Shown piece after piece: positions 21,993 through 40,889 of a DNA stretch of 64,000 nt (its first letter is position 1; the number at the start of each line of letters is the position of its first letter). A program made the position numbers and the translations under genes. Origin of the DNA: Planctomycetota bacterium (GTDB lineage Bacteria > Planctomycetota > Phycisphaerae > Phycisphaerales > Phycisphaeraceae); the NCBI GenBank assembly GCA_024276075.1, contig JAJRXX010000041.1, positions 1 to 64,000 of the forward strand, given 5' to 3'. A model generated the notes under the pieces. That model was not told where the DNA came from. It saw only the letters and a list, made by a program, of their open reading frames with translations, and did no database searches.

Positions 21993-22946
21993 TCAGGCGG
22001 CTTTTTTGGAATTACGACCTTGATAACTGCGGTACCCGTTGCCGTATTGGTACCCATATTTGTAGTAGTAGTAATAACGACGCTTCGCTCGCTGCTGATC
22101 TGTTGCGATCAGGCCGCCAACCGTTGCGTTGTAGTTCGCTAGGGTCCTGATAGCCTGTTCGATCAATTGTCGCGGCGTACGGTTCATGCGTGCGATGAAT
22201 AGAACCTCATCGCTGATAGCCCCGATGATGCCTGCGTCAGCTAGTTCGATGACAGGTGGCGTGTCGATGATCACGTGGTCGTAGCTATTGCGTAGCTGCT
22301 GGACCAGTGAAGTCATCGCGGGACTCGACAGCAATTGGACCGCGTGTTTGTTGTCGACCCTGCGGCCGGCGGGTATCACGTGGAGTCTGTCGTCTGACAA
22401 TCGATGAATGGTCGCGGGGAGTTCAGCCCGCCCCTCGAGTAAGCCGACCAAGCCCGGAGAGCTGGGAAGCGACAGCATTTTGTCGAATACCGGGAGCCTT
22501 AAGTCAGCTTCTACAACCGCGATACGACGGTTCCGCAATTCAGCGAAGCTGGTGCCCAAGTTGAGGGTGGTAATCGTTTTGCCTTCTTGGGGCGTGGCGC
22601 TGGTGACCGTATGCACAAGGTGTCGTTTCTGCTGCCACCGCGCGAGCAACCCTGTGCGTATCGAGCGGTATTCTTCCGCCATGAGGCTCGCTGATTCGGT
22701 CATCGCCACCACGCGCTCGTCGACTCTGCTCGTATCGAGATCAAGCGTTGCGCTGCGATTGTCAAACTGTAGCGGTCCCGAGTCGGACAGCAATTGGTTA
22801 GCAGCGCCCGTCGAGTTACCCACGACGGGTGTTGTGGGGCCCGAGTCAGGCGCGGGTGTTTCCGGATTCGCGTGTTGACGATCGTTTTGGTCACGCGGAT
22901 CGTCGTCATTAGGCGACCGATTCATAGCATCAAATATGTAACCCAT
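21993..22946 (-). CDS. BY-kinase (CpsD/Wzc-type tyrosine autokinase)
   Basis: 317-residue cytoplasmic tyrosine kinase controlling polysaccharide polymerisation. Walker A is TPQEGKT, Walker A' is VVEADLRLPVFD and Walker B is VIIDTPP. The C-terminus is a tyrosine cluster (RRYYYYYKYGYQYGNGYRSY), the usual autophosphorylation tail. An acidic, Asn/Pro-rich N-terminal 60 residues precede the kinase. The chain-length partner is encoded two genes upstream (23832-25505) as a separate protein, as in XrtA-type loci. Start and the preceding stop share one base. Confidence 0.9.
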   Translation of the reverse strand: MGYIFDAMNRSPNDDDPRDQNDRQHANPETPAPDSGPTTPVVGNSTGAANQLLSDSGPLQFDNRSATLDLDTSRVDERVVAMTESASLMAEEYRSIRTGLLARWQQKRHLVHTVTSATPQEGKTITTLNLGTSFAELRNRRIAVVEADLRLPVFDKMLSLPSSPGLVGLLEGRAELPATIHRLSDDRLHVIPAGRRVDNKHAVQLLSSPAMTSLVQQLRNSYDHVIIDTPPVIELADAGIIGAISDEVLFIARMNRTPRQLIEQAIRTLANYNATVGGLIATDQQRAKRRYYYYYKYGYQYGNGYRSYQGRNSKKAA

Positions 22947-23827
22947 TAGAAACTCCCTGCTAGTTTGAACGCCTCTTCTTCGGCGCCGACCCCATCGGGT
23001 GCATCATCAAACCTGGGCACCATGTCCTCAACGACGTGGTGGACGATTTCAGGAGTGATCTGATTGGTCTTACGCACAAACCCCAGTAATAGGCAGTTGT
23101 CGCACGCCACGTTGATCAAACGGGGGATGCCGCCTGATACCAGATGAATTTCGCTTAACGCCGCGGGGGTGAATTGCACTTTGACGTTTTTGGCGTCGAT
23201 GCTCGCGGCTCGTATACGGTGTGCGACGTACCGAGCTGTCTCTTGCGCTTCGAGGGGGCGAAGCCGTTTAGCCATTACGATTCGCTGGCGCAGCGCGTCG
23301 TACTTGGATTGGCGGATCCGATCACGCAACTCTGGCTGACCGACCAATACGATTTGGATCAGCTTCTGTTTTGCGGTATCGAGATTGCTTAGCAGCCGTA
23401 GCTCTTCGAGAGCGTCGTCGCATAGGTTTTGTGCTTCATCGACGAACAATACCACTGGTCGCCGCCGCTGGAATTGATCGGTGAGGTATGCCTGAAGCCG
23501 CTTGAGTAGTACAGCGTAATCGTCGCTCGCTTCGGTCGGTACCTCTGCGTACCGCAAGACCTGCCGCAGCAATTCGATGCCGTTGTTGTGTCGGGGGATA
23601 ATCTCAATGATCGAGGCGTGGTCGCCGCAGTTTCGGCACATGACACGTCCGACGGTGGTTTTTCCCGATCCAATGTCGCCGGTGACCAGAACGACACCCT
23701 TCCTCATGCGGATGGTGTATTCGATCGCCGCTAGAGCCTCTCGGTGCTGTTCACTGGCGAAGAAGAACCGAGTGTCCGACGTATTTTCGAACGGTAGTGT
23801 ATGTAGATGGTAGTACCTGTGGTACAT
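22946..23827 (-). CDS. XrtA/PEP-CTERM-associated AAA ATPase (ExeA/GspA-like)
   Basis: 293-residue AAA ATPase. It starts MYHRYYHLHTLPFENT, typical of ExeA-type proteins (Y..F.L...PF), with Walker A GDIGSGKTT near residue 50, Walker B VVLFVDEAQ and a sensor region ending VSGGIPRLIN. It resembles the ATPase that always accompanies XrtA-type EPS genes (TIGR03015-like). The exact role is not known; it probably drives or regulates assembly of the export machinery. It is 4 bp downstream of the chain-length gene. Confidence 0.88.
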   Translation of the reverse strand: MYHRYYHLHTLPFENTSDTRFFFASEQHREALAAIEYTIRMRKGVVLVTGDIGSGKTTVGRVMCRNCGDHASIIEIIPRHNNGIELLRQVLRYAEVPTEASDDYAVLLKRLQAYLTDQFQRRRPVVLFVDEAQNLCDDALEELRLLSNLDTAKQKLIQIVLVGQPELRDRIRQSKYDALRQRIVMAKRLRPLEAQETARYVAHRIRAASIDAKNVKVQFTPAALSEIHLVSGGIPRLINVACDNCLLLGFVRKTNQITPEIVHHVVEDMVPRFDDAPDGVGAEEEAFKLAGSF

Positions 23828-23831
23828 GGGT

Positions 23832-25505
23832 CTACTCCTGGGGGATCACCACGGCGGCGTCGATCCGACTGTTGTTAAGTTGCTGACGGATAAATGACGT
23901 GGGGTTGTCTTTGAGCTGCTTGAACAAGTGCGGCTTCTCAAGGTTGAGGTAGAGCAGCCCAAGCACCAAGATCAGCACAGCCGCCATGGCTGAGGCGTTG
24001 ATCGGGTACAGGATCGTATTCCTGAGCCGACGCTCCGCCCGCTGCTTATTCGAGATGATTTCGCTCACCGTGCCCGCCAGGGTGACGTTTAGCGTCTCGG
24101 CGAGTTGTTCGCCTGTACGGAAAGTATCGTCTGTACGGTAGGCGAAGAAGACATTTATACCACCGGCTGCCAAACCCAATGAGATGGTCAGCATCAGCAC
24201 CTGAACCAGGTTGGGCGACACGGGCTTGTAAATCACTGGGCAAGGTTTGACAAAATCTAACCGGATCCCGCGATTGCCCGATTCCGCTGTTACTGCCATC
24301 TGTACACGGCGGAGGTTTTCTTCCCAGAAGGTCAATTGGCGCTGTGTTTGATCGATTTTCCGGCTGAGCTTGCGGTAGTCGGCTCGGACGGGGAATAGCT
24401 GCGACGAGTTTACGTTAAAACGTGAGATCACATCCTTGAGCGTGTCGATTTGTTTGTCGGTTGTTTGCAGCAAGGTAGTCGCCTGTGACAGTTCCAATTC
24501 GAGACTGTCGCGCTTCAGGTTGGCGCTCATGCGTTTTTCCGTCACGATTTCGGTTGGTGTATCGGCTATTTCCTGTTGGGTCGAAGCGATCTGTTCTTTG
24601 ATGACGACCAGGTCCGGGTGCTTGTCTGTCATCTTGTACACGTCGATGTAGCTTTCCTTTTTCTGATTCAGGTCTTGCAGTTTCGACGTGAGGATATCGA
24701 GATGAGGATTACGAGATGTGACGATCTGAGGCAACACTTCGGGCGTTGACGTAATCAACTCTCGAAGCGCACTAATACGCATCGCTGTGGCGTCCCGCTT
24801 CTGGATTTGCTCCGCTAAATCGGCCTGGGCTTGATTCAGCCTGATTTGAATGCCGCCGGGGTAATCCGGCAGCAACTCGGCGTGATCTATTTCAAAGGTC
24901 AGTTTTTTGTTTTCCAGTTCCTCAATCAGACGCCGGCTGCGTTCAACCTCGGATTGAAAGAAACTTGCGGTTTGCTCCAACCGCCCGTTGATCAAGCGGC
25001 GTGTGCGGTCGAGGTAATTTTCGACCAACACATTAACGACGGCTCGAGCCATTTTGGGGTTGGCGTGTAAGAACTCGACACGGATCCGGTCAAATTCCCG
25101 CGTCCCGATGTCAAACTTGACAGTCACTCGGCGTGACAGATCGGACCGCAGGTTATCCAGATCGAACGAGTTTTCACCTTGCAGGATTTGGGCGGACTCC
25201 CTGGACGACTTGAGTGTCTGAATCATCTCATCGATGGCTATCTGGCCGGCGATCTCCTCGACCAATGACTGCCGTTGAGAGTCCAAAAATGACTTCGATC
25301 CACCCTGGTCGATCATTTGATTCATAACCATGTCGGTGTGGCGTTCGAAGATGGCCGTTGCTTTGTATTTGCGGGGTAGGAGAAAGCTGCCGATCATTAG
25401 TCCTGCGGTTACACCAAATGACGCGAGGATGAATCGCCATCGGTATCGCACCACAGCTTCCCATGCTTCGATCAGCGTCTTGGTTTGGTCGTTGTATTGG
25501 TTCAT
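23832..25505 (-). CDS. Polysaccharide chain-length determinant (Wzz/GumC-like)
   Basis: 557 residues with the PCP layout: TM1 (about 24-45), a long periplasmic region rich in coiled coil (residues 150-420), and TM2 near 500. The Wzz domain begins YRWRFILASFGV and the pre-TM2 proline region is VKPCPVIYKPVSPN. It lacks a fused kinase domain, which is encoded separately at 21993. It should set polymer length and open the export channel together with the lipoprotein encoded immediately upstream. Confidence 0.88.
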   Translation of the reverse strand: MNQYNDQTKTLIEAWEAVVRYRWRFILASFGVTAGLMIGSFLLPRKYKATAIFERHTDMVMNQMIDQGGSKSFLDSQRQSLVEEIAGQIAIDEMIQTLKSSRESAQILQGENSFDLDNLRSDLSRRVTVKFDIGTREFDRIRVEFLHANPKMARAVVNVLVENYLDRTRRLINGRLEQTASFFQSEVERSRRLIEELENKKLTFEIDHAELLPDYPGGIQIRLNQAQADLAEQIQKRDATAMRISALRELITSTPEVLPQIVTSRNPHLDILTSKLQDLNQKKESYIDVYKMTDKHPDLVVIKEQIASTQQEIADTPTEIVTEKRMSANLKRDSLELELSQATTLLQTTDKQIDTLKDVISRFNVNSSQLFPVRADYRKLSRKIDQTQRQLTFWEENLRRVQMAVTAESGNRGIRLDFVKPCPVIYKPVSPNLVQVLMLTISLGLAAGGINVFFAYRTDDTFRTGEQLAETLNVTLAGTVSEIISNKQRAERRLRNTILYPINASAMAAVLILVLGLLYLNLEKPHLFKQLKDNPTSFIRQQLNNSRIDAAVVIPQE

Positions 25506-25555
25506 GTTAAACCTGCCTTAGTTTGCCCCACAGTGGGCAATCATTTCCGCTGGGG

Positions 25556-26323
25556 TTATTGCACCTCGTTGCCGCCATAGGTCCGGGTTCTGGCTGAATC
25601 GTCAATCTCAGTCGGTCTTTGGATCGTCATTGCCATCGGCTGCAAGGGCAGCAGCAACTGCTGCAGCGCCAAGCCTACCGCCGCCAAGCCGTTGGCGGGC
25701 ACGTAAACGATGTCGCCTTCTTCGAGCACAGCGTCCAGCGCGGTATCACCTTCCTTGATCATTTTGTCGAGATTGATCGTCATCCTGCGGATTAATTCAC
25801 CATCTTTGTTCGGCCGTAGCACGTGTATTCGGCTCGGGTCTGCCAGGCGGGTTGGCTGAGCGGTGGCGAGCGTTTCGAGGACGGTATTGGCGCCGTCGTA
25901 TGAATACGGGCCCGGTGCGCCCACCTCTCCGAACACGTAAATCTTCTTGCTACGGAACGACGTGACGCGCATGGTTACGTCTGCGTCTTCATAGAAGTCT
26001 CTTGCCTTGGCCTCCAGTTCCGCAGCGACATCTGCACAAGTTCGTCCAGCGACAAACACACTGCCAAGCAGCGGCACGGTGATTCGGCCGTCGGGGGCGA
26101 TCTGTTCACGGTGCCGATCGATCTCGCGTACCCGTTTGGAGGTGATCTGTACTTCATCCGGGGGAGCCATGTGGTATTCGGTTAGCGTGACCAACGGCCG
26201 AGGCTCCGAGATGAACGAACTGTAATCGGTGTAATACGTGCAGCCGCCCATGACCGCTAAACCAGTCAAGAGGGGCATAAACACGGTTGAGTACCTGTTG
26301 AATTTTTGTTTCATTAAGCTCAT
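25556..26323 (-). CDS. Outer-membrane polysaccharide export lipoprotein (Wza-like)
   Basis: 255 residues starting at ATG 26323, which has GAGGAG six bases upstream; a reading extended to 26422 adds unlikely Cys-rich residues. The signal peptide ends in the lipobox VMGGC. The poly-export domain (DEVQITSKRVREIDRHREQIAPDGRITVPLLG) and an SLBB-like segment (KKIYVFGEVGAPGPYSYDG) follow. It forms the secretin-like export pore for the polysaccharide of this locus. Confidence 0.9.
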   Translation of the reverse strand: MSLMKQKFNRYSTVFMPLLTGLAVMGGCTYYTDYSSFISEPRPLVTLTEYHMAPPDEVQITSKRVREIDRHREQIAPDGRITVPLLGSVFVAGRTCADVAAELEAKARDFYEDADVTMRVTSFRSKKIYVFGEVGAPGPYSYDGANTVLETLATAQPTRLADPSRIHVLRPNKDGELIRRMTINLDKMIKEGDTALDAVLEEGDIVYVPANGLAAVGLALQQLLLPLQPMAMTIQRPTEIDDSARTRTYGGNEVQ

Positions 26324-26354
26324 GACAAGCTCCTCGCCGACAAGCGGCTGGCTC

Positions 26355-27017
26355 TCACATTGCGCCGTGGTCCCACACCTTGGGGACCGTTCCCAACAGG
26401 AGCAAAAACTCCTGCCTAACATTTCGGCGACGCAGGTATCGCAGGTCGTATGCGAGTTTTTTCCTGGCGCCTGTTGTGTTCGATGTATAGCCGTTGCGGA
26501 TCTGTGCCAGCCCAGTTAGCCCGGGCTTGGCCACCAGACGTCGCTCAATTTTCGGCATCGATTGCCGTAGCTTTTCAATAATCTCGGGTCGTTCAGGTCG
26601 GGGACCCACCAGGCTCATTTGTCCCTTTAAAATATTCCACAACTGAGGCAACTCGTCGACGTGGCTCTTACGCATCCACGCGCAGCCTGATAGGACCCGC
26701 GGGTCTCCGCTGCGTGCAAACTGTGCTTCGCCGTCTCGTTCCGCATCCATAGTCATGGTTCGCAGCTTGTAAAGCCGAAACAGCCACCCATCTCGGCCCA
26801 CGCGCCACTGATGGTAAAGCACCGGTCCCCCGTCGATGAGCTTGATCCATACAGCAGACAGCACCAAAAGAGGTGCCGCCATCACCAGGCAGATCAGTGA
26901 TACGACAATGTCTATCGAACGCTTAAAGCATTCGAAGCCTGCCCTGCGCACCGCCCAACTAGATTGAGGTGCCGCCACGACCAAGTGCGTAATACCGTTG
27001 TGAGCCGCTTGATTCAT
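26355..27017 (-). CDS. Priming sugar transferase (undecaprenyl-phosphate hexose-1-P transferase)
   Basis: 220-residue bacterial sugar transferase. A single N-terminal membrane helix (SIDIVVSLICLVMAAPLLVL) precedes the catalytic domain with KLRTM, the D-E-L-P-Q-L-W-N block, LVGPRPERPE and KPGLTGLAQI, all diagnostic. It transfers a sugar-1-phosphate to undecaprenyl phosphate to start each repeat unit. First gene of the minus-strand EPS operon, whose promoter must lie in 27018-27481. Confidence 0.93.
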   Translation of the reverse strand: MNQAAHNGITHLVVAAPQSSWAVRRAGFECFKRSIDIVVSLICLVMAAPLLVLSAVWIKLIDGGPVLYHQWRVGRDGWLFRLYKLRTMTMDAERDGEAQFARSGDPRVLSGCAWMRKSHVDELPQLWNILKGQMSLVGPRPERPEIIEKLRQSMPKIERRLVAKPGLTGLAQIRNGYTSNTTGARKKLAYDLRYLRRRNVRQEFLLLLGTVPKVWDHGAM

Positions 27018-29675: not shown

Positions 29676-29800
29676 AGCATTTGGCGTAATTAATCTTCAT
29701 TGACCGGGTGGCACGGCTTGCTTGCAAGCCGTGAAATACAGATGTCTGTTACAGCTGCGATCAAATCAAGATGGAGAATATTCACGCCAGTTGCTCTAAC
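29676..29800. repeat. 125-bp element with imperfect terminal inverted repeats and a central palindrome
   Basis: The left end (AGCATTTGGCGTAATTAATC) and the reverse complement of the right end (GTTAGAGCAACTGGCGTGAAT) are alike. Inside is a perfect 9-bp hairpin CACGGCTTG-CTTG-CAAGCCGTG (29712-29733). The left end to 29709 matches 45599-45625 at 26 of 27 bases, and the right end matches 45587-45603 over 17 bases. The right end supplies the TAG stop of the cytidylyltransferase gene, so this element abuts the phosphoramidate operon exactly. Confidence 0.7.
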
Positions 29801-30611
29801 CGCGCTCTCGCAGCGATTGCTTCCGGTTTGCGTGGGTGGAGACGGCATCGGGCCAGCGAAACATTTCGGATGATCCTTCACCGATTAGCCGCTCGTAAAT
29901 CGCCAGGTCGTTTGGATTATCAACCTCAAACCAGCGGTCGTTGATCGGGGTGGTTTGGATGTGTACGTTTTGAGCAAGTAACTGACCCAGCAAACCTGTC
30001 ATATCCAGGCGGTCTTGTTGCGATTGCGGTAGGGCATCGAGAAATCGCTCGACCCGACGCCAGCCTTCAGGCGTGAACTTCAAAAGACCCATGAATTGCC
30101 CCTGGACCTCGTCCAAGGAATCCGCTTGGCCACCAATTTCCAGCAGCCGACCGTCGTTGTCGATCTTGAACGTTTCCGCGTCGCTCAGGGGATCTTCAAA
30201 TCGCAATGACCACAGCTTCGACCAATCAGGATCGTAGGTAAGCACAATGTCCCCCGGAGCGGACATGAGCCGTCTCACCGCGTCGGCTGAATAGACGATG
30301 TCCGCGTAGCTCACGAGGCAGACGTGCTGGTGTAGCCAACGGCTCGCGGTCATCAGCGACACAACCATATTCGTTTCCGACCATCGTGGGTTGTTAAACC
30401 GGGTCAACCCAGGTCTCTCGAGCATCTCGGCGAGGTAGCCGGTGACGATCCCAATCGATTCGGCACCCGCGCCTTGTAACGCTTCGAGCTGCCAATCGAG
30501 CAGTGATTGACCCCCGAGCCGGGTGAGGCATTTCGGGTGGTCTTGTGTGATCGTCCCGAGCCTGCTGCCCCTGCCCGCAGCGAGGATAATCGCGTGGCTT
30601 TGCGTTTTCAT
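29796..30611 (-). CDS. Nucleotidyltransferase, predicted CTP:phosphoglutamine cytidylyltransferase (Cj1416-like)
   Basis: 271 residues with the sugar-nucleotidyltransferase fold: AIILAAGRGSRLG, DHPKCL, SYADIVY (metal-binding Asp) and a distinctive WSKLWSLRFEDPLSDAETF segment. It is of the LicC/phosphocholine-cytidylyltransferase kind. In C. jejuni the homologous Cj1416 condenses CTP with L-glutamine phosphate to CDP-L-glutamine. I choose that call over phosphocholine activation because the neighbours are the other three enzymes of that pathway. ATG 30611 overlaps the previous stop as ATGA; the frame extended to 30692 is not credible. Last gene of the operon; its stop codon lies in a repeat. 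Confidence 0.75.
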   Translation of the reverse strand: MKTQSHAIILAAGRGSRLGTITQDHPKCLTRLGGQSLLDWQLEALQGAGAESIGIVTGYLAEMLERPGLTRFNNPRWSETNMVVSLMTASRWLHQHVCLVSYADIVYSADAVRRLMSAPGDIVLTYDPDWSKLWSLRFEDPLSDAETFKIDNDGRLLEIGGQADSLDEVQGQFMGLLKFTPEGWRRVERFLDALPQSQQDRLDMTGLLGQLLAQNVHIQTTPINDRWFEVDNPNDLAIYERLIGEGSSEMFRWPDAVSTHANRKQSLRERG

Positions 30612-31216
30612 ATCGGGGCTTTCACGTGGTACGTCGACCGGAATAGTTCCGCGTCCGCCGTGTCGAATGGTTCGTTCCGCTCCGGGTGCCACATGATGCC
30701 TGTGACGTCGAGCTTGCGGTGCCTGACAGCCTCGATCATGCCGTCGCGTGTTCGCGCGATCGCTTCGAGATCATCGGACAACTCGGATACAGCGTAATCG
30801 TGGTAGCTATTCACGGACCTTTCACCAGCGGAAAAAACAACAGCATGTCGGGTATTCACATGCCCCTCGACTTTAGTTAGCGTCCCGCCGAATCGGTGCG
30901 CGATCATCTGCATACCCCGGCAGATGCCCATCAGGGGCGCATTCCGATCGATGGCGTAGTCGATTAAAACGTTTTCGATTGCATCGCGTTCTGGTGCGTC
31001 GCCGCCGTACGCAGCCAGATCGTTGCCGCCCGTGAGCAAGACGCCGTGGGGGACATGGTTTTCCAGCAACGCCCGAGCGGTCGGCGTATGGTTTGGAATA
31101 ATCAACGCTGTTAAACCCAGGCTGTGCAGAAACACCGACCACTGCTGGTCGAGACAGTCTTGCCGCTCGCCGTGCGTCGTCTTTGCTACTCGTTGGCTTA
31201 CCGCGATCAGCGTCAC
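30608..31216 (-). CDS. Class I glutamine amidotransferase-like hydrolase, predicted gamma-glutamyl-CDP-amidate hydrolase (Cj1417-like)
   Basis: 202 residues of the C26/class I amidotransferase fold. Triad: Cys99 in MGICRGMQ, His177 and Glu179 in MWHPERNEPF; the oxyanion strand is LTGGNDL. There is no synthetase partner of the usual kind. In C. jejuni Cj1417 cleaves CDP-L-glutamine to cytidine diphosphoramidate and glutamate. The GTG at 31216 overlaps the kinase stop as GTGA, matching the tight coupling in this operon; upstream starts would intrude 60 bp into that gene. A generic gamma-glutamyl hydrolase (PuuD-like) would be the call without the context. Confidence 0.75.
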   Translation of the reverse strand: MTLIAVSQRVAKTTHGERQDCLDQQWSVFLHSLGLTALIIPNHTPTARALLENHVPHGVLLTGGNDLAAYGGDAPERDAIENVLIDYAIDRNAPLMGICRGMQMIAHRFGGTLTKVEGHVNTRHAVVFSAGERSVNSYHDYAVSELSDDLEAIARTRDGMIEAVRHRKLDVTGIMWHPERNEPFDTADAELFRSTYHVKAPI

Positions 31217-33588
31217 CGCAGCACCTTCACCTGACGGTTCATGCAGTCTATATTGATTAACTCGCCCGCCGCCCATTGATTGTAGAGCACCTCGCCAGCT
31301 CCGATGACCGCGGGGATACCGATCTCACCAGCCCGGATCGCCATATGCGAATTCGCACCGCCGTACATCGTGACCAGGCCCGCGATGCCGTGCGAGAAGA
31401 CCCAGTCGTAGCCCGGATCGGCGCTGGGGATAAACAAAATATGACCATGCAACCGATCACGCCCGTCGGTGCAGCTTACCCCGTGTGCGGTAGCGCTTTT
31501 CTGGGTGATAAAGTTAGGCGACATCGGCGGCAGGTGAAAAGCCCAGACGTCTTCGGGTTTATCAATCAGCGGGGGCAGCACCAGTTGCTTGGTTACCCTA
31601 TAAGATCGCTTGCCATTTTCGATGCTGCTGCGAAGCGTCTGCCCTGCTTCTTGCCCCGACGAATAAAGATTGTAGATCGTGTGGATGTCCAGGTAGGACA
31701 CATCCTTGCGCGACAGGTTATGTTCGCGTCCGAGGTCTTCGAGCAGTGTCAACACAGCACTGACGCTCCGGGTGAATACAAATTTCCCGTGCTCTCGGCT
31801 CTCGATCGCGGTTTTGATGAAGTCAAACAGGCCCAGCGCATCGTGCTCGAACCCGTGTTCTTGCAGCAGTGATTCGGTTTGCTTGAGCTGATCGATTGAC
31901 AAACGGAAAGGCTGCTTTGAGCGGTGCCCCATGGGGTTGGAGTATTTGGCGGCGGCGTGTGTCGCGTCGTGGCCGTCGGATGGAGAGTCCCAGCAGAAAT
32001 ACGCGTCGGGCGTCTCGTCGTACCGCGGCGAAAGAATGTCGTACGTTCCGGGCCGCAGGTGCCCGTACTTTTCAAGGAACGCGCTTTTCTTTAGCCGTGC
32101 GAAGTCCCCAGCCATGCGCGAGCTGACCGTTTCGAGCGAACCCATAAAGCTGTCGTACTCCTCTTGGCTGAGGATGCCCACGCCCACCAGCGACCGGAGC
32201 ACCTGTACCGCGATGAAGCCCGCCCTGGCCAGACCGGCGAAGGGCAGCGTGCCGTACCGTTTGCAATCCTCCAACAGCCAATAGATTTTGGACACGTGAT
32301 CGAGCTCGCTCTGGAGGATCAGGTCCTGGCGTTCTTCGAGCAGATCGATCTTCGCCGCGTCGGTGCGCCACAGACCGTTTTCGTTGTGGATGATGCGGTT
32401 TGTGAGAGTTTGCAAGCTCAATTCGAGTTGTATGCATTCGGCTTTGCTAAAGCCATGACGCTGCAGCTCGGCGAGCCGATCGGGTAGATCAAACGTGTAA
32501 CAAGTATGAAGGATCTCAAACTCGACTTTGTCGTGCTTGCTGGGGGTTTCGATGAGCCGATCGATGTAATAATTTACCAGCTTGTCAGCCAGCTCTTGCT
32601 CAAGGTCTTTTGGGATAAAGGAATTAAAATCGACGCGCACGTCGATGAACGGCTGCCCCCCCAGACTCACCAGCAGCGGGCAGCTACGCATGTTGCGGTA
32701 GCCGTAGTTGTCGCGCTGGTACGCCCAGATGCTGTCGGTGATGAGTTCTTTATATAAGGATAGCGTCAGTGGCCGCGGGCGCACCCCAATCATCTCAGCG
32801 GGGTTCCAGTCGGGCATGACGCCGAAGGCCGACTTGCTCCCGTGCAGGTAGGGGTGGGACACGCTCAGTTGGCGTATTTTTTGCTCGGCGTGGGTCAGAG
32901 CGTCGCAGAGTTGCTTCGGGTCGCATGCCACATCGGTAGCCACGGGTAGCGGGCGCACCTGCAACAAATACAGCGTGCCGTCAGCCGTCAGGGCAAACTC
33001 GATGTCCAGACGATCCGTCGCAAAAATCGTTTCCAATTCATCCACCAGCGCCAACACCCGGTCCAAAGGCTCGGGGGCTGTCGATACGGGCCCGTGCTTA
33101 AAAGCGTAAAACGTCTTCAAGCGATTCGTCTTGCCGGACGTAACCGATCGGGTGGACCCCGATTCGCCGTCGTAATTAATCACCACATACGCGCTACCCG
33201 TGGACGGGTCGATGCTAAACGCCACGCCGCTCACCACCACGCTGCGGAGCATCGACTGCACGAAGAGCTGTTCCCCAGACGTGGACTTGCCGTAGGACTC
33301 GATGACCTTGGCCACCGCGCCTTTGAACTTTCGTTTGTCCCGGACGTCGAGCACGGACGTGAAGTGTCCCGCCAGCGATTGGTGGGCGTCGTCCTCGGCC
33401 TGGGCGCTGCTGCGAACGATCACGCCGTTGCGCAGCGGGCCGACCTGGTCCACTTGGCTCATCACGCGGTCGGGTTCCTTTTGCCATTGGTTGACCGTAA
33501 ATCGCACCTGCGGCAGGACCCTGGCTGTCGTCAGCAAAGGCGCTAGACGCTCAAGTGTTTCCGCTTTGGTGCCGAATGCGATAGCCAA
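31213..33588 (-). CDS. PEP-synthase-like enzyme, predicted L-glutamine kinase (Cj1418-like)
   Basis: 791 residues in three parts. An N-terminal ATP-grasp domain of the PEP synthase/PPDK type (about 1-215: IVRSSAQAEDDAHQSLAGHF, SGVAFSIDP, DIEFALTADGTLYLLQVRPL) is followed by a long central linker domain, and then a C-terminal phosphohistidine domain (715-791) with His748 in GGANSHMAI. The PEP/pyruvate barrel of true PEP synthases is missing. C. jejuni Cj1418 has this layout and length and phosphorylates the amide of L-glutamine, giving AMP and phosphate via a phosphohistidine. The start is TTG 33588 with a poor ribosome site; the frame is open further up without a usable start. It overlaps the next gene by 4 bp. 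Confidence 0.8.
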   Translation of the reverse strand: MAIAFGTKAETLERLAPLLTTARVLPQVRFTVNQWQKEPDRVMSQVDQVGPLRNGVIVRSSAQAEDDAHQSLAGHFTSVLDVRDKRKFKGAVAKVIESYGKSTSGEQLFVQSMLRSVVVSGVAFSIDPSTGSAYVVINYDGESGSTRSVTSGKTNRLKTFYAFKHGPVSTAPEPLDRVLALVDELETIFATDRLDIEFALTADGTLYLLQVRPLPVATDVACDPKQLCDALTHAEQKIRQLSVSHPYLHGSKSAFGVMPDWNPAEMIGVRPRPLTLSLYKELITDSIWAYQRDNYGYRNMRSCPLLVSLGGQPFIDVRVDFNSFIPKDLEQELADKLVNYYIDRLIETPSKHDKVEFEILHTCYTFDLPDRLAELQRHGFSKAECIQLELSLQTLTNRIIHNENGLWRTDAAKIDLLEERQDLILQSELDHVSKIYWLLEDCKRYGTLPFAGLARAGFIAVQVLRSLVGVGILSQEEYDSFMGSLETVSSRMAGDFARLKKSAFLEKYGHLRPGTYDILSPRYDETPDAYFCWDSPSDGHDATHAAAKYSNPMGHRSKQPFRLSIDQLKQTESLLQEHGFEHDALGLFDFIKTAIESREHGKFVFTRSVSAVLTLLEDLGREHNLSRKDVSYLDIHTIYNLYSSGQEAGQTLRSSIENGKRSYRVTKQLVLPPLIDKPEDVWAFHLPPMSPNFITQKSATAHGVSCTDGRDRLHGHILFIPSADPGYDWVFSHGIAGLVTMYGGANSHMAIRAGEIGIPAVIGAGEVLYNQWAAGELINIDCMNRQVKVLR

Positions 33589-33667
33589 ATTTGATTCGCC
33601 GGTGTTTGATGGTTCCGTAGAGCGTTTACAGACATTCGTTTTTAAGGGGGTTGTGATTCGTCTGGGG

Positions 33668-34429
33668 CTATTGGGAGCCGTGTTTGAGTTGTGCCATCCA
33701 GACCCGTGTGGTGTAGGGGATCGCGAGGCTGTCAGCGGTTTCGCTCCGTAGCATCTGTTCTATCCGGTCCACGATTTGATGGAACTTGTCGCCAGCCTGT
33801 CGGTGTAGCGTGCCGTGAGACCGCCACGCCTCGATCACATCATCTACGTTTTGGTAGTGAATCACAGACCGCTCGATCCGGTGGACCGGTCCGAACAAGC
33901 CGCTTGCGGAAATGACCTCGCTCTGATCCTGTCGACGGGTCCCGTATGTGTAGCCGGGGATGTTGGCTTGAATAATCTGCTCGATCTTAGCCTGTACGGG
34001 ATCAGCCAAGTCGCGGTGATTCCACATCATCGCGCACCACGCGTTTGGCTTTAATATCCGTGACGTTTCTTTTAATGAGCGGGTATGGTTGGTGACGTTA
34101 AACGACGAGCCAAACGTGACCAAGTCAAACACATGCTCGGGTTGGCCGGTATCTTCGCCGACGCCCTCAAACCAGTGGATATTCTTGCGGTCGGCGGTCC
34201 GTTCCTTGCCCAAGCTTCGCATCGCGTCGTTGGGCTCGATTGCGGTGACGTCCAGGCCACGATCGGCGAGCATCAGCGTCAGGTGGCCCACGCCTGCACC
34301 GACGTCACAGGCGCGCGCGCCGAAGCCAACGCCTGCTTTAGAAATAATTTCATCGATCGCTTGGTCGGCGTAGTTGGGCCGTTTCAGGTAGCCCTTGGCT
34401 AGTTCGGTGTAGTCCCATTCGGTTTTCAT
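33668..34429 (-). CDS. Class I SAM-dependent methyltransferase, predicted phosphoramidate O-methylation (Cj1419/Cj1420-like)
   Basis: 253 residues, starting MKTEWDYTELAKGYLKRPNY from ATG 34429, which overlaps the preceding stop as ATGA. The SAM motif I is ACDVGAGVGHLT; motif II/III positions are VTAIEPN and LVTFGSSFN. Two methyltransferases, Cj1419 and Cj1420, accompany the C. jejuni MeOPN genes and are thought to put the O-methyl group on. I see one here; the MT domains at 38.4 and 40.1 kb could be others. Which atom it methylates cannot be read. The gap to the glutamine kinase gene is 79 bp, the widest in the core cluster. Confidence 0.75.
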   Translation of the reverse strand: MKTEWDYTELAKGYLKRPNYADQAIDEIISKAGVGFGARACDVGAGVGHLTLMLADRGLDVTAIEPNDAMRSLGKERTADRKNIHWFEGVGEDTGQPEHVFDLVTFGSSFNVTNHTRSLKETSRILKPNAWCAMMWNHRDLADPVQAKIEQIIQANIPGYTYGTRRQDQSEVISASGLFGPVHRIERSVIHYQNVDDVIEAWRSHGTLHRQAGDKFHQIVDRIEQMLRSETADSLAIPYTTRVWMAQLKHGSQ

Positions 34430-34965
34430 CGGGTGGGTTCTCCAAGGGGCGCGGGTCTTAGCCGTTCCCACAGTATATGGGCGATATCATCGGGGGCTTG
34501 CGAGCCGTCGTTGTCGATCACAAGGTCGGGTTCACGGGGCTCCTCAAACGGGAGGTCGATCCCGTACACGTTTTTGGTATTGCCCGCCGCCGCTTCCTTG
34601 TAAATCCCTTTGGCATCGCGTGACCGCAGTATGTCAATCGGGACGCGGATGTATATTTCGTGATAGCGGTCGATATTCGCTCGGTTCCAGCGGTGCACCT
34701 CGTGGAGCATCGAGATGGTGGCGATGACGACGCCGGTACCCTGGTCGGCCAGGAGCTTGCACAGCCTCGCGTAGCGCATCGCACACAGCAAGCGATCATT
34801 TTGGTCATACCCCAGCCCGTCGCCGATGGCTTGCCGCAGCGCGTCGCCATCGAGGAACACCGTGGCCTGGGACGTGTCCCTGAACAACTCGTAAAAAGCC
34901 CGGCCGATCGTGGTCTTCCCCGCGCCCGACAAGCCTGTAAACCAGTAGATATCACCCGTTTTCAC
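34426..34965 (-). CDS. APS-kinase-like P-loop kinase, predicted cytidine-diphosphoramidate kinase (Cj1415-like)
   Basis: 179 residues with Walker A GLSGAGKTT and the APS-kinase fold (FLDGDALRQAIGDGLGY, DAKGIYKEAAAG, GIDLPFEEP). It differs from CysC in the substrate region: RYARLCKLLADQG followed by ATISMLHEVHRWNRANIDRYHEIYI, where CysC has FISPYRADR. That variant is the type found in capsule clusters. Cj1415 in C. jejuni phosphorylates the 3'-OH of cytidine diphosphoramidate. GTG 34965 overlaps the sulfotransferase stop as GTGA and removes a 14-residue extension that would overlap more. The alternative is a true APS kinase serving the sulfotransferase, but no ATP sulfurylase is in the window. 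Confidence 0.75.
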   Translation of the reverse strand: MKTGDIYWFTGLSGAGKTTIGRAFYELFRDTSQATVFLDGDALRQAIGDGLGYDQNDRLLCAMRYARLCKLLADQGTGVVIATISMLHEVHRWNRANIDRYHEIYIRVPIDILRSRDAKGIYKEAAAGNTKNVYGIDLPFEEPREPDLVIDNDGSQAPDDIAHILWERLRPAPLGEPTR

Positions 34966-36047
34966 GCCGGTACCCATTCTGATAATTTCGTCAATAACAC
35001 GTCGCAACCTTCTGTTTTCGCCTCCGGTCGGCTCAGCAGATTACGCAGAAAATAACCGTATGTCTCAAACATCGTCGGCACCTGGTGGATGGGCATCCTT
35101 GATCGGATCAGCCAGCCCAGGTCGAGCTCATTTAAGAAACGGATCGCGTTTAAAACAAATTCATTCTCAAACGGGTTGGCCGTCTGATCGCGGTGCACAG
35201 CCGGGCACAACCGGGTGTGTTTAATAAATTTTGGAATCAATCCCAGGTGAGGCCACAAGTCGGGTGGCGGGCTGTCGGCATCGCCGTGTCGCGTGTTGTA
35301 GCCGAGTTGTCGCATCAAGCCCGCGTTGCGCCGTTCGATGCGGCGGACGACGTCGTCATCGTCGGGTCGCTGAGTCCACTCGCCCGCTTTGCTCGCGCGC
35401 ATCACAGGTTGGTCTGGCGTCTGAGCGGATTGGCAGAATCTCGCTTCCGCGTCCGCGGCTTTTGAATAATCCGATCCGGCCACCGCGCGGGCGATCGCAT
35501 CGGAATCAGCGGGTAGGTTGTTTTCATCCAGGATACGCCGAAGCAGTGTAATTGCGTCCTGTTTGTAGTCTTCGAAGCGATAGGTTTTTATGCCGGGGTG
35601 GTCCATCCAGAGCAGATGAAACAGGTACCAGTTATCTATTTTGTTTATCAGCGAATCGCAGTCGAGGTGATCGACGAAATCTCCGTAATCGATCCAGCCG
35701 GATTGGCGTTTGTAGCTTGAGTAAATCGCGTCACGCGGATCGCGTGTAATGTAGATCACCCTGGCACCCTCATGCTTCGCACGCAACGGCCAATCGTGCG
35801 TCCACTCCACTTCGATATCGTCACGGAATGTGAAACGCGATTGCTGCGACAAGATCGGTAGGTAGCGGTATAGCTGAGATTCTTCGGGCCGCAGCCGCCA
35901 GTGGCTTCCGTCTTTGACCCATGAGTCACCGCCGCCGTACACACCCCGGTACGTCTTGATGCCCAATTCGAGCAGGCAATTCGCCAGCCAGGTCATCCCC
36001 GAAGGCTCTTTGGGTGATACCAGGTAATACTTAATTGGTTGGGGCAT
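34962..36047 (-). CDS. Sulfotransferase-fold protein; candidate transferase for the phosphoramidate group
   Basis: 361 residues with both nucleotide motifs of PAPS-dependent sulfotransferases: a 5'-phosphosulfate loop SGMTWLANCLLELG near residue 16, and a 3'-phosphate-binding ITRDPRDAIYSSYK near residue 100 (Arg and Ser). The C-terminal 100 residues are extra. The textbook call is glycan sulfation. The position gives a second option: it is translationally coupled to a kinase expected to make a 3'-phospho-CDP-amidate, a close structural analogue of PAPS, so this fold could transfer phosphoramidate instead of sulfate. Both are inference. Confidence 0.75.
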   Translation of the reverse strand: MPQPIKYYLVSPKEPSGMTWLANCLLELGIKTYRGVYGGGDSWVKDGSHWRLRPEESQLYRYLPILSQQSRFTFRDDIEVEWTHDWPLRAKHEGARVIYITRDPRDAIYSSYKRQSGWIDYGDFVDHLDCDSLINKIDNWYLFHLLWMDHPGIKTYRFEDYKQDAITLLRRILDENNLPADSDAIARAVAGSDYSKAADAEARFCQSAQTPDQPVMRASKAGEWTQRPDDDDVVRRIERRNAGLMRQLGYNTRHGDADSPPPDLWPHLGLIPKFIKHTRLCPAVHRDQTANPFENEFVLNAIRFLNELDLGWLIRSRMPIHQVPTMFETYGYFLRNLLSRPEAKTEGCDVLLTKLSEWVPA

Positions 36048-36059
36048 GTTTGGAAGGCG

Positions 36060-37466
36060 TCACTTATTGGTAGGTGTTGTGATCTTTCGTTCATTACAAC
36101 AAACGGTGGCTGTCAGGCGTTGGCGATCATCAATGGGCCCGACGCCGCCGGCGACGTAGCGTACTCGATCGCTTAACTGTTTAGCGTCCAGGGCTCGCCA
36201 GGGGTCGATCACCACGCGCAGCCGACCCGATCCGCAAAATTCTGTACCCGTCAGCCGCGTGAATTCGGGCCAAGGAGTCATCACCACCGCCGCGTCTGCC
36301 GTGTCGATACAAGCCCGCAAGCTGTCGGCAAACCGCACGCCGTTTTGTGACACCCGCTGTGCGTTTTGCATCGCAGCGGGGTCGTATGCGATTAGATCGA
36401 TCCCGTTGCTTGCCAGCGATTCAGCGAGTTGCAAACCTTGAGACTGTTCCACAACGTCACTATGTGGCTTGTACGCCAATCCCAGGACCGCCACGGTGTC
36501 GTTTGGCTCGGTGTTCTGTTTGACGAGATTTGCGAGCCGATCGACTTGTCGGCGATTGACGTGATCTACGGATTCCGCCAGTTCCGCCGAGGCGCCGACG
36601 GACCGCGCCACACTAGCCAGCGCCCGGTTGTCACGCGGAAAACAAGGCCCGCCGTACCCGACACCGCCGGTGAGGTACTTTCGGCCGATTCGGCTGTCGA
36701 GCCCCAGCGCGCCGGTGACCCGGTCCACGTCCGCTCCGGGAAGGTGCTGGCAGATACCCGCGAGTGTGTTGGCGAACGTAATCTTGGTCGTGACGTATGA
36801 GTTCACCGCGATCTTTGCCAGTTCGGCGTTTGCGAAGTTCATCCGCGAGTTTGGCGGATTGGTCTGGCAAACCCGGTCGTAGATCGACGCTAGCAACTCA
36901 CCGCTGTGGGGGTCGGACTCCCCGATGAGGATGAAGTCGGGGTTTAGATAATCGTGGATCACGCTGCCAAGCGCGACGAACTCCGGGCTATAGCACAGGC
37001 CGAAGTCTTCGCCGCAGATTCGGCCGCTGGTTTTTTCGAGCGTGTCTCGTACCGGCCCACCCGTAGCGCCGGGCATCACGGTGCTCACCAGGACGATCAA
37101 GTGATACGCCTGTTTATTTGCTAACGCTTCGCCGATCTCTTTGCACGCGGACAGGACGTATTGCAGCGTAAAGCCGCCGTCCGATTCGCTGGGTGTGGGT
37201 ACGAGGACAAATGTAATGTCCGTGTCCCGTACCGCTGCGAGGGTGTCGGTGGTTGCGTTGAGTCGGCCATTTGTCTGCGCGATCATCTCGTCCAGGCCCG
37301 TCTCGTAAACAGGGGGGCGGCCATCATTCAGCGCCGCGACGCGATCCGCGTCTCGATCGACGCCGGTGACGCGGAACCCCTTTGCCGCCAAGCACGCCGC
37401 GATCGGAGCGCCTAGTCGCCCCAGCCCGATCATCGAAATCTTTTCATTAAATGGATTCATCTGCAT
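36060..37466 (-). CDS. UDP-glucose/GDP-mannose dehydrogenase family protein
   Basis: 468-residue NAD-dependent nucleotide-sugar 6-dehydrogenase making a uronic acid. NAD site GLGRLGAP near the start; the catalytic cysteine is in GGPCFPRDN (around residue 270), followed by the central dimerisation helix and a C-terminal UDP-binding domain (GLAYKPHSDVVEQSQG). Substrate (UDP-glucose, UDP-GlcNAc or UDP-ManNAc type) cannot be told apart with confidence. A second ATG at 37460 is an equally good start. It supplies a building block for the glycan made by this operon. Confidence 0.9.
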   Translation of the reverse strand: MQMNPFNEKISMIGLGRLGAPIAACLAAKGFRVTGVDRDADRVAALNDGRPPVYETGLDEMIAQTNGRLNATTDTLAAVRDTDITFVLVPTPSESDGGFTLQYVLSACKEIGEALANKQAYHLIVLVSTVMPGATGGPVRDTLEKTSGRICGEDFGLCYSPEFVALGSVIHDYLNPDFILIGESDPHSGELLASIYDRVCQTNPPNSRMNFANAELAKIAVNSYVTTKITFANTLAGICQHLPGADVDRVTGALGLDSRIGRKYLTGGVGYGGPCFPRDNRALASVARSVGASAELAESVDHVNRRQVDRLANLVKQNTEPNDTVAVLGLAYKPHSDVVEQSQGLQLAESLASNGIDLIAYDPAAMQNAQRVSQNGVRFADSLRACIDTADAAVVMTPWPEFTRLTGTEFCGSGRLRVVIDPWRALDAKQLSDRVRYVAGGVGPIDDRQRLTATVCCNERKITTPTNK

Positions 37467-37511: not shown

Positions 37512-38342
37512 TTAGGCACCAAGACGGACCGAGCGTCGGTAGCTCCAGATACCCCCGCCAAGTTCGGTTTGGCTTCGGTGTTCGAGACCATCTTTTGTCA
37601 GTACATGCGTGCTGTCCCAGATGGTGAACGACTTTGACAAACCGCCCGCCAGCGCGAGGTTTTGCTTTGCTTCCGGGCCGTGGCGAGCGCCTTTGTACCC
37701 GCCCACCGCGTGCTGGTAGTTGTGGTTTTGATGGATCACGGTTACGACACCGCTAGCATCAATCGCCGGGACTTTGAGCATCCGTGCACGCCAGATCAGC
37801 CAGTTGTCCCACGCGAACCGTCCCACAGCAAACGGCGGAATACGACCCCACATGCCACGCGAGAAAACAAAATAATCAATGTGCGTTGGTCCCTGGAGGT
37901 GGCCTGTGTCGGCGATACGACGGCCCAGCCGGTCTTGCCAGCCGGGTGAAAAGTCCAGTAATTCTTCGTGTTGCAGGTCCAGGTCGGTCCTTCGGCCCAC
38001 CATGAGAAACTTTCGCTTGCGCCTCATCACACGCTGTACCGCATCAAGAAATTCGTTGGTCAGGATGATGTCCGCGTTGACGTAGCACAGCAGCCGATGT
38101 GAGCTGGCCGATTCGCCGCACCGGAACACGTCATTTAGCAGGGGTGTGCCGTATTTGTTGCGCTCTATTTTGTTAACGTGTGCCGCGCCGATGTCGTTGG
38201 CGGCTTGGGCGGTGCCCGGCTCGTCGCCGATTAGCAGGATATCGCACCGCGGATCGAGCAGACGCCAACTCTGCAGCGCGTTTCGCTGGATCGCGCCAAA
38301 GTGACCTACAAACGGCTTTGGGATCGAAAAGAGGGTAATCAT
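37512..38342 (-). CDS. Glycosyltransferase-like protein (GT-A type)
   Basis: 276 residues. It begins MITLFSIPKPFVGHFG and has NADIILTNEF with a DXD-like centre (YVNAD near residue 90) and, later, DYFVFSRGMWG and FAWDNWLIWRA, features of small GT-A transferases. The exact family is not recognised. It is sandwiched between other glycosyltransferases and the dehydrogenase in the same operon, so it probably adds one sugar of the repeat unit. Confidence 0.6.
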   Translation of the reverse strand: MITLFSIPKPFVGHFGAIQRNALQSWRLLDPRCDILLIGDEPGTAQAANDIGAAHVNKIERNKYGTPLLNDVFRCGESASSHRLLCYVNADIILTNEFLDAVQRVMRRKRKFLMVGRRTDLDLQHEELLDFSPGWQDRLGRRIADTGHLQGPTHIDYFVFSRGMWGRIPPFAVGRFAWDNWLIWRARMLKVPAIDASGVVTVIHQNHNYQHAVGGYKGARHGPEAKQNLALAGGLSKSFTIWDSTHVLTKDGLEHRSQTELGGGIWSYRRSVRLGA

Positions 38343-38435
38343 ATTCGCCAGCCCTGTGTGGCCAATCGCCGTTCATGCTTTCGTGAGTGTGCCGTGACCA
38401 CACATGTAATCCAAATATAAGCACAAATGCTTTTG

Positions 38436-40058
38436 CTACGCGGCCTTTTCTGAGATTGCACTTTGCCGAAGCACATAACAACCAATCGCCGGGGCACCCG
38501 GCCGATGCTGCTTCGGGATGGTTAATGTATGGTCTTGCAATGGATTGCCGTTGATCCAGCGGTTGTTTTTATCCATGGTCCATTGTGTTCTTTCGATTAA
38601 TTGGACGCCTCGTAGTTGTTCATACGTCGGCTCTGCGCGGACGGGCATGGCTAAGAGCAGGTGTCCGCCGGGTTTTAGAGCGCTACATAGTTGTTGCATA
38701 TGGCGCAGCGTGCTGTCGATGTAGGCGTTCGTAACGCTGCGGATCACGATCAGGTCGTACCGCTGGCGCGGATTGGTCAATTGCGCGACGCGGTCTTTTG
38801 TAAACCGCAGTCTTGGGTGGGCGTATGGCCATCTTGTGTGTGTCGGCGCGGTGGCGAGTACCTCGTGGCCGGACATGGCCGCGACCAACGGCAGGTTGCT
38901 TTCGTCGTCTTCAAAAATCAACGCACGCCCCGTGGCTTTAGGCAGGTGCGAAATAATCCAGCTCTGTGTGATGGCGTGTATAGGCATAGAGTCGTCGATC
39001 GGGCTTTCTCGCCAAAGCGTAACCAGTTCCTCAGTAGCACGGGAGGCTAATTTGAACGGCAGGCAGGCTACGATCCGCAACGATTCGAGTGCTTTTACGA
39101 CCCACCCGGATCGGGTCCCGCTCTGTAGATAAGTCGTACACCGCTTGATGATCTGAGGCAGGTTTGTCGGGTCCCAGGCTGCTGCGCATAGGGTGTATTG
39201 GGTGATGATGCTCCATAGCGGGCCGGCGTTCAAGGCGTAATCAGCGCCGCGCAGGTAGGCGTTGCTCATTGCCCTGCGTTTTTTCTTTTTGAGGTCGATC
39301 GGCACATCGGGCAAATGGTAGAACCGCTTCATGACCTCGATGCACGCTGGTGCGGCACGCCGTCCGTCGTGGCAGTGTCCCTTGATATTCCGTTCGCAGC
39401 CCAATGGTTCGGGGAGGTAGGCGATTTCGCCTTGTAGAGCGACCCGTAGCCACAATTCACGGTCTTTAAACAGGTGGCTCGGTTGGCCGGTGGTATCGGG
39501 TGTGAGGTACTCGATTCGGTCCAGGGCTGACCGGCGGATGAACGCTGCGGGTTGTGGGATGCAATGGTCGCTGTATTCGACTGCATAATTCAGGTCCCAT
39601 TGGCGCAGGTACGTCCAGCCGACGCGCCGACCCGCTTTGTCGATCTCGTAACAGTCGCCGTATACGACGTCGGTGCCCGGTTGTGATTGCAGATACCGCA
39701 CCGCGCGTCGTACAGCGTTCGGCCCGGCCCAAAGATCGTCTGCGTTCAGCCAGGCCAAAACCTCGCCTTGACTTATGCGCCAGCCCTTGTCGATCGCGTC
39801 CGAATGGCCATTGTCAGCTTCGCTGATCCAGCGGATACGGTCGCCATAGCTTTCGAGGATTTCAATCGTGTGATCGGTTGATCCGCCGTCGACCACGATG
39901 CACTCGACGTGTGGGTAGTCTTGTTGGAGCACACTCTCGATCGTGTCGCGTAGGTATGCTGCGCGGTTCAGGGTCGGGATGACCACGGAGACCGTGAGCG
40001 GTTTTGACGCCGACACGGATTGGCTGCCGCTGGTTGTCGTGTCCGTTGTGTGGCTCAT
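38436..40058 (-). CDS. GT2 glycosyltransferase fused to a SAM-methyltransferase-like domain
   Basis: 540 residues. N-terminal GT2 domain: VSVVIPTLNRAAYL, IVVDGGSTDHT, WLNADDLW (DXD-type) and FKDRELWLRVALQG. The C-terminal 160 residues (ALIFEDDESNLPL, RYDLIVIRSVTNAYI, LKPGGHLLLAMPV) look like a class I methyltransferase core, but the motif I glycines are replaced by DDES, so SAM binding is doubtful. ATG 40058 overlaps the previous stop as ATGA with GGGAG upstream. It probably transfers a sugar and may act as a bifunctional or scaffolded enzyme. Confidence 0.75.
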   Translation of the reverse strand: MSHTTDTTTSGSQSVSASKPLTVSVVIPTLNRAAYLRDTIESVLQQDYPHVECIVVDGGSTDHTIEILESYGDRIRWISEADNGHSDAIDKGWRISQGEVLAWLNADDLWAGPNAVRRAVRYLQSQPGTDVVYGDCYEIDKAGRRVGWTYLRQWDLNYAVEYSDHCIPQPAAFIRRSALDRIEYLTPDTTGQPSHLFKDRELWLRVALQGEIAYLPEPLGCERNIKGHCHDGRRAAPACIEVMKRFYHLPDVPIDLKKKKRRAMSNAYLRGADYALNAGPLWSIITQYTLCAAAWDPTNLPQIIKRCTTYLQSGTRSGWVVKALESLRIVACLPFKLASRATEELVTLWRESPIDDSMPIHAITQSWIISHLPKATGRALIFEDDESNLPLVAAMSGHEVLATAPTHTRWPYAHPRLRFTKDRVAQLTNPRQRYDLIVIRSVTNAYIDSTLRHMQQLCSALKPGGHLLLAMPVRAEPTYEQLRGVQLIERTQWTMDKNNRWINGNPLQDHTLTIPKQHRPGAPAIGCYVLRQSAISEKAA

Positions 40059-40864
40059 GCCTTGACTCCCGCCAGCAGCCAGCTTGGTTTGATCCAAAAC
40101 AGGTCGGTTAGTTCCTGCTCGAGCCAATTCAAATTGTTTTTGATCGCCGTGACCACGCCTATCGTGGATGAGCAGGTTTCAATAATTTTTGGTTCCAGGC
40201 AGAAGTCGTGCCACAGGACGATCCCGCCGGGCCGCAATAGGGGCAACGCTTTGCGCGTGTCGCTAGCAACGATGTCTTCGGTATGACCGCCGTCGATCAG
40301 CACGCTGTCGAAAAAACCGGGCGGATACTGCCGTGTGTCCCACTCTCGGCTATCGCAGTAAATTTGGCAGACGCGCTTGCCGTAGCCCGCGTCAAGGTAG
40401 TGCAGCCCGACCAACCCGACAGCGTCGGATGGGAATCGGCTAGGCCGACCGTCGCCGATGATTTCTTGGAGCCACGCGGGCCGTTGGTCTTTTTTGAGCA
40501 CACTCGCCGGGTACGCCCACGTCCCGCCCGGGTGTTTCTCACCTTCGGGCAGGTTGAGGGTCCAGACGGTCGCGTCGCATTCGGTCAGGCAGCACAGGGC
40601 GCCGGTGCCCAGCCACGTGCCGAATTCCAGATGCCGCTTCGGCGATAGGTGGCGAAATATATAACACAGGATCGCCGTGTCGTCGCCGTCCATGGCACGG
40701 TCAAGCATCGACGTGTCGCCTGTACCCGTTGGACACAGTGGCTGGTCGAACCCTAACCGTTCATGCAATCGATCCAGTGTGACTGCGGGTATCGGTGGCA
40801 GTTGAGATACCAGGTTTTCACAACCGTGTTGTGTAGCGGAATCAGTGGGCATGCTTGTGTTCAC
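40055..40864 (-). CDS. SAM-dependent methyltransferase (Methyltransf_24/cephalosporin-hydroxylase-like)
   Basis: About 269 residues. Motif I is HLEFGTWLGTGAL, with FFDSVLIDGGHTED and GGIVLWHDFC as the acidic and post-strand motifs of this type. It likely methylates a sugar hydroxyl. The start is uncertain: GTG 40864 or ATG 40852, neither with a clear ribosome site; starts further up run into the preceding gene. Confidence 0.7.
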   Translation of the reverse strand: MNTSMPTDSATQHGCENLVSQLPPIPAVTLDRLHERLGFDQPLCPTGTGDTSMLDRAMDGDDTAILCYIFRHLSPKRHLEFGTWLGTGALCCLTECDATVWTLNLPEGEKHPGGTWAYPASVLKKDQRPAWLQEIIGDGRPSRFPSDAVGLVGLHYLDAGYGKRVCQIYCDSREWDTRQYPPGFFDSVLIDGGHTEDIVASDTRKALPLLRPGGIVLWHDFCLEPKIIETCSSTIGVVTAIKNNLNWLEQELTDLFWIKPSWLLAGVKA

Positions 40865-40889
40865 AGATGATTGTTGGCGTTCCCTTATT

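Follow-up and report, generated by a model that had tools for sequence, protein, structure and literature searches.

Which protein would attach the activated group to the glycan in a surface-polysaccharide locus that encodes relatives of the Campylobacter jejuni O-methyl phosphoramidate (MeOPN) enzymes? The locus lies in a 64,000-nucleotide stretch of a Planctomycetota genome of the family Phycisphaeraceae (GCA_024276075.1, contig JAJRXX010000041.1, positions 1 to 64,000), here called the window, which is contig C34 of an assembly of 77 contigs totalling 2.88 Mb. An initial annotation had described five adjacent genes, for a glutamine kinase, an amidohydrolase, a cytidylyltransferase, an APS-kinase-like kinase (APS, adenosine 5'-phosphosulfate) and a methyltransferase, as a complete pathway. 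All five open reading frames (ORFs) were located on the minus strand with the sizes and overlaps reported, but the set was not complete, as a likely transferase gene directly upstream (34962-36047, minus strand) had been missed. This sixth gene encodes a sulfotransferase-fold protein (ST). Judging from homology, gene order and predicted fold, the cassette probably makes phosphoramidate and attaches the group to an exported polysaccharide, with ST as the transferase.

The five cassette genes form two translationally coupled blocks within an exopolysaccharide locus. Four-base-pair overlaps couple the starts of the glutamine kinase and amidohydrolase genes, the amidohydrolase and cytidylyltransferase genes, and the kinase and methyltransferase genes, and a 79-bp gap separates the methyltransferase gene from that of the glutamine kinase. 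A 4-bp overlap (GTGA) joins the ST gene to the start of the kinase gene, and both belong to one unit.

The order of donor synthesis established in C. jejuni runs from glutamine through phosphoglutamine, CDP-glutamine and CDP-amidate to 3'-phospho-CDP-amidate (PMC11800397, PMC6429109). The glutamine kinase homologue (GlnK; 31213-33588, minus strand, 791 residues) consists of an ATP-grasp domain, a family-specific middle domain and a phosphohistidine domain, and aligns end to end with NF004508 (PRK05849), scoring 937 bits against a cut-off of 501 (E = 7e-282). His748, located in GGANSHMAIRAGE of the C-terminal phosphohistidine domain, is invariant together with its surrounding motif in 13 aligned sequences. 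The domain layout is that expected of the pathway's glutamine kinase. For the amidohydrolase (AmH; 30608-31216, minus strand, 202 residues, GTG start), a proposed gamma-glutamyl-CDP-amidate hydrolase in the role of Cj1417, the best NCBIfam model is NF045546, which describes this activity (136 bits, E = 1.8e-39), followed by GMP synthase at 61 bits and a PuuD-type model at 45 bits; the earlier choice of a Cj1417-type enzyme over PuuD is thus upheld. Cys99, His177 and Glu179 are invariant in 15 sequences. NF045546 was also matched by all 15 cassette AmH homologues tested, the best E value among them being only 7e-50. Because 136 bits falls under the curated cut-off of 250, we describe AmH as a homologue instead of an equivalog, and this shortfall counts against the pathway assignment. 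The MobA-like nucleotidyltransferase (CT; 29796-30611, minus strand, 271 residues, PF12804 E = 3e-19) is the proposed CTP:phosphoglutamine cytidylyltransferase in the role of Cj1416. Specificity for phosphoglutamine is suggested by cassette context, since CT matches just generic nucleotidyltransferase and LicC-like models and its best PDB match is the CTP:phosphocholine cytidylyltransferase LicC. As homology to the C. jejuni enzyme classes, the predicted donor pathway is supported.

The ST gene coupled to the kinase is the more interesting part. Its product (361 residues) matches Sulfotransfer_1 (PF00685) weakly (E = 1.7e-5). An AlphaFold2 model built from 15 sequences, which replaced an earlier 4-sequence model with a predicted local distance difference test (pLDDT) score of 48.7, has a mean pLDDT of 71.9 and a predicted template modelling score of 0.71, the last 110 residues being of low confidence. 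Residues 3-252 of the model align to sulfotransferases bound to 3'-phosphoadenosine 5'-phosphate with Z scores of 16-18, and 50 of the 50 listed entries are sulfotransferases. The 3'-phosphate-binding segment is kept as RDPRDAIYSSY (conserved motif RDPRDAxYSxY); across 15 sequences neither Arg102 nor Ser110, the residues that bind the 3'-phosphate, varies. A GEW/SEW motif is conserved close to the end of the domain.

In sulfotransferases that use 3'-phosphoadenosine 5'-phosphosulfate (PAPS), the 5' P-loop (PKSGTTW or PRSGTT) contains a basic residue, lysine or arginine, that contacts the transferred sulfuryl group. In the window ST this loop reads KEPSGMTW, with proline in place of the basic residue, and its closest relatives carry A, S, P or G there. 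Loss of the sulfuryl-binding residue, with the 3'-phosphate site retained, is in keeping with phosphoramidate, rather than sulfate, as the transferred group. Clustering of the genes that neighbour cassettes elsewhere yielded a second sulfotransferase-like group, ST0, whose members score above the Pfam Sulfotransfer_3 cut-off; it is the commonest neighbour family (28 loci, median distance 17 bp). A nonbasic P-loop residue is present in 31 of 45 cassette STs (17 of 29 ST0 proteins and 14 of 16 others) and in none of 45 background sulfotransferases of the phylum, all of which have K or R (11 of the 45 loops were read by eye and the rest by a script pattern); the Fisher p of 2.6e-13 overstates independence because the sequences are related.

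Occurrence also ties ST to the cassette. A tblastn search of 72,556 plasmids with ST returned a single record, an Azospirillum lipoferum plasmid in which the match adjoins a glutamine-kinase cassette, while a plasmid search with an ST0 query gave no matches. Among 294 genomes of the phylum, strong ST matches were confined to two, this genome and G259, each of which also has GlnK. Both matching proteins had contributed to the query alignment, so the informative part is that no strong matches occur elsewhere. In L040 and L045, further cassettes of the same phylum, an ST-like gene adjoins the kinase as in the window. We counted both ST groups together with their close variants, up to a distance of 3 kb: an ST-like gene is present in 38 of 76 kinase-bearing cassettes vs 2 of the 18 without kinase (Fisher p = 0.003, 93 loci).

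These observations suggest the following route. By homology to the MeOPN enzymes, GlnK would phosphorylate the amide nitrogen of glutamine, CT would form CDP-gamma-glutamyl-amidate, and AmH would release glutamate to leave CDP-amidate. The kinase would then add a 3'-phosphate, parallel to the conversion of APS to PAPS by the APS kinase CysC. The predicted product, 3'-phospho-CDP-amidate, would be an analogue of PAPS, as a 3'-phosphonucleotide with the activated group on the 5'-phosphate. ST could bind it through the 3'-phosphate motif and transfer phosphoramidate to a sugar hydroxyl, and the methyltransferase may O-methylate the group before or after transfer. On balance, we lean towards the view that recruitment of sulfotransferase-fold enzymes has produced phosphoramidate transferases, for which 3'-phospho-CDP-amidate serves as a PAPS mimic.

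Several observations weigh against this view. Arginine is retained at the P-loop position in 12 ST0 proteins, and lysine in two cassette-linked STs, one of which, in L108, has the locus's true CysC as its neighbour. No ST-like neighbour was detected for about half of the kinase-bearing cassettes, some of which carry Glyphos_transf genes instead, and when the kinase-ST association was evaluated over independent pairs, its direction was always consistent but non-significant (median p = 0.25). An ST0-family protein of G005 (L245:9074-10291) is a possible counterexample: it lies at the edge of a contig in which no cassette was detected, and the genome has no above-cut-off GlnK.

The best surviving alternative keeps the donor pathway as in C. 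jejuni and has ST sulfate the same polysaccharide as a conventional PAPS-dependent enzyme, with a glycosyltransferase-like neighbour as the phosphoramidate transferase. PAPS is probably available, as the genome encodes a canonical CysC and several other sulfotransferases, and the several kinase-bearing cassettes that lack an ST-like gene speak for it as well. Such a role is nevertheless hard to square with the 4-bp coupling of ST to the kinase, the absence of the basic P-loop residue and the near-exclusive occurrence of ST with glutamine-kinase cassettes in plasmids and the sampled phylum. Classing ST as a plain sulfotransferase was rejected on the sequence tests described above, and we regard the alternative as unlikely.

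That the product decorates a glycan is indicated by the setting, and the surface-glycan context given by the initial annotation is correct. Upstream of ST by 12 bp and in the same run lies a UDP-glucose/GDP-mannose dehydrogenase gene (36060-37466, minus strand; PF03721/PF00984/PF03720), preceded by a run of glycosyltransferase and methyltransferase genes (37512-44488, minus strand; PF00535, PF13578, PF13524). Exopolysaccharide export and initiation genes, encoding AAA ATPases, a chain-length-like protein, a Poly_export/SLBB protein and a Bac_transf sugar transferase, are found at 21993-27017 (minus strand; PF02563, PF02397, PF13614). Were the product instead a small phosphoramidate metabolite, one could point to relatives located away from glycan genes. 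On an Agrobacterium vitis plasmid (L037), a kinase-less cassette is accompanied by a LysE-type transporter and a CDP-alcohol phosphatidyltransferase and possibly makes a different phosphoramidate product, and an orphan GlnK of Cupriavidus taiwanensis is on a plasmid near nif genes. For the window this is very improbable, as its cassette terminates the same-strand run of glycosyltransferase and dehydrogenase genes near the export genes, and other cassettes are located among polysaccharide or flagellar genes. Flagellar genes stand beside the cassettes L062, L063, L065, L071, L075 and L121, mostly of Pseudomonas and with hook-associated-type proteins, and flagellin-like ORFs beside L098, L099, L109, L131 and L136, an arrangement that suggests phosphoramidate on flagellar glycans. 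Elsewhere in the window (57960-63308), a 1782-residue protein contains several domains of the cytochrome c type together with a carboxypeptidase-regulatory-like one.

The proposed CDP-amidate 3'-kinase (34426-34965, minus strand, 179 residues, GTG start; PF01583 E = 1e-34) had been annotated as a Cj1415-like enzyme, and comparison sets it apart from CysC. It matches PRK05541 with 179 bits (E = 7e-53) and scores 132 bits against the APS-kinase model TIGR00455, under the cut-off of 138.7, whereas the genome's own canonical CysC, on a separate contig (C52), reaches 269 bits. In a 107-sequence tree, branches with 100% support in the Shimodaira-Hasegawa-like approximate likelihood ratio test (SH-aLRT) divide 75 cassette kinases, that of the window among them, from 31 CysC proteins, and the sole cassette-derived sequence among CysC is the second, CysC-type gene of L108. 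We therefore rejected assignment of the cassette kinase as CysC. Homologues of CysN and CysD were not found near kinase-bearing cassettes, with single-chain Sat not checked. The least credible proposal, in which the kinase acts as an additional APS kinase and forms a sulfation module with ST while GlnK, AmH and CT make another product such as a CDP-linked amide donor, could draw on membership of the kinase in Pfam APS_kinase and the preceding sulfotransferase-fold gene, but is opposed by the fully supported split in the tree, the sub-threshold score beside a genuine CysC, and the lack of CysN/CysD.

The S-adenosylmethionine-dependent methyltransferase (MT; 33668-34429, minus strand, 253 residues, PF08241 E = 5e-14) is the proposed phosphoramidate O-methyltransferase. 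Its equation with Cj1419/Cj1420 stands in part: the gene and its coupling to the kinase are present, whereas the role is inferred, the adjoining C. jejuni genes Cj1419 and Cj1420 having no assigned function (PMC11800397). The best evidence for action on phosphoramidate is co-occurrence with the kinase across cassettes. Of 94 loci counted for the kinase-MT and kinase-ST associations (76 with kinase and 18 without), MT is present in 67 of the 76 kinase-bearing vs 2 of the 18 kinase-less, and the association holds over independent pairs on the GlnK tree (median p = 0.016). The top four plasmid matches of MT all fall in records that also bear a glutamine kinase.

Rather than being peculiar to its phylum, the cassette is, judged by its relatives, a member of a widespread type. 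At least 564 stretches among 84,980 species genomes encode a GlnK relative, and the best 80, which were examined, span Pseudomonadota, Bacillota, Acidobacteriota, Verrucomicrobiota, Planctomycetota, Chlamydiota and others, with no Campylobacter locus among these 80. GlnK was above cut-off in 8 of 392 sampled genomes of the window's phylum, and near-full-length relatives occur in 14 plasmid records. Phosphoramidate outside Campylobacter is also already known, in nonmethylated form, from the lipopolysaccharide of Xanthomonas and Shewanella (PMC3907429). Chance or mis-binning as the source of the cassette was rejected, given the fairly even GC content of the window (0.53-0.64) and the presence of the same gene set in relatives from unrelated genomes.

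Gene content varies across 93 glutamine-kinase loci, with AmH in 88, CT in 89, the kinase in 75 and MT in 68. Kinase-less cassettes mostly lack MT too, and some have CDP-glycerol glycerophosphotransferase-like genes; Glyphos_transf genes were considered as a marker of kinase-less cassettes and dropped, as the counts give no support (Fisher p = 0.59). In L035, L036, L042 and L045, GlnK has an extra N-terminal nucleotidyltransferase-like domain while a separate CT gene is also present. Kinase and GlnK are read as a single fused ORF in L061, L066, L069, L070, L077, L082, L067 and L074, mainly from Acidobacteriota. In L038 and L078, GlnK is present with no AmH, CT, kinase or MT detectable nearby. 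GlnK relatives (33% identity) were also seen in a 9.5-kb unverified 'phage' record (L244, MT837632.1, 676-3006) and in one IMG/VR contig (L241), both of which may be bacterial fragments.

The spread of the cassette over many phyla and plasmids suggests that surfaces decorated with phosphoramidate are far more common than the examples from Campylobacter, Xanthomonas and Shewanella. Such decoration may be relevant to phage recognition, because in C. jejuni MeOPN acts as a receptor for phage (PMC9561416). If ST is the transferase, the purpose of the APS-kinase-like 3'-phosphorylation step would be explained, a gap in the known pathway would be filled by a testable enzyme family, and the sulfotransferase superfamily would gain a new transfer chemistry. 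We found no in vitro reconstitution of MeOPN attachment and methylation in the papers located (PMC11800397, PMC12409886), and no prior proposal of sulfotransferase-fold phosphoramidate transferases in the literature searched, which is weak evidence given its mostly open-access coverage.

Several known systems resemble the cassette. Like the C. jejuni MeOPN locus (Cj1415-Cj1418), as likened through family models, it has the four donor-enzyme classes with a methyltransferase nearby in a surface polysaccharide locus, but it differs in having a sulfotransferase-fold gene coupled to the kinase and a single methyltransferase; the C. jejuni transferases Cj1421 and Cj1422 are known genetically (PMC9561416, PMC11800397). 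The A. lipoferum 4B plasmid AZO_p6 (L033), for whose cassette no published function was found, carries the kinase, MT, GlnK (53% identical), AmH, CT and an ST homologue within 10 kb, although ST is downstream of CT and the kinase is inside a larger ORF. A predicted MeOPN-like cluster in Borgs (PMC12660748) shares, by description, predicted phosphoglutamine cytidylyltransferase genes and a glycoconjugate region with the window, but is located on archaeal extrachromosomal elements. At the protein level, the cassette kinase has its fold family and P-loop in common with CysC and is set apart by clade and cassette context. ST likewise shares the fold over residues 3-252 and the 3'-phosphate-binding motif with PAPS sulfotransferases such as Teg12, StaL and the SULT family, from which it differs in the P-loop change from K/R to proline, about 110 extra C-terminal residues and its proposed donor, 3'-phospho-CDP-amidate.

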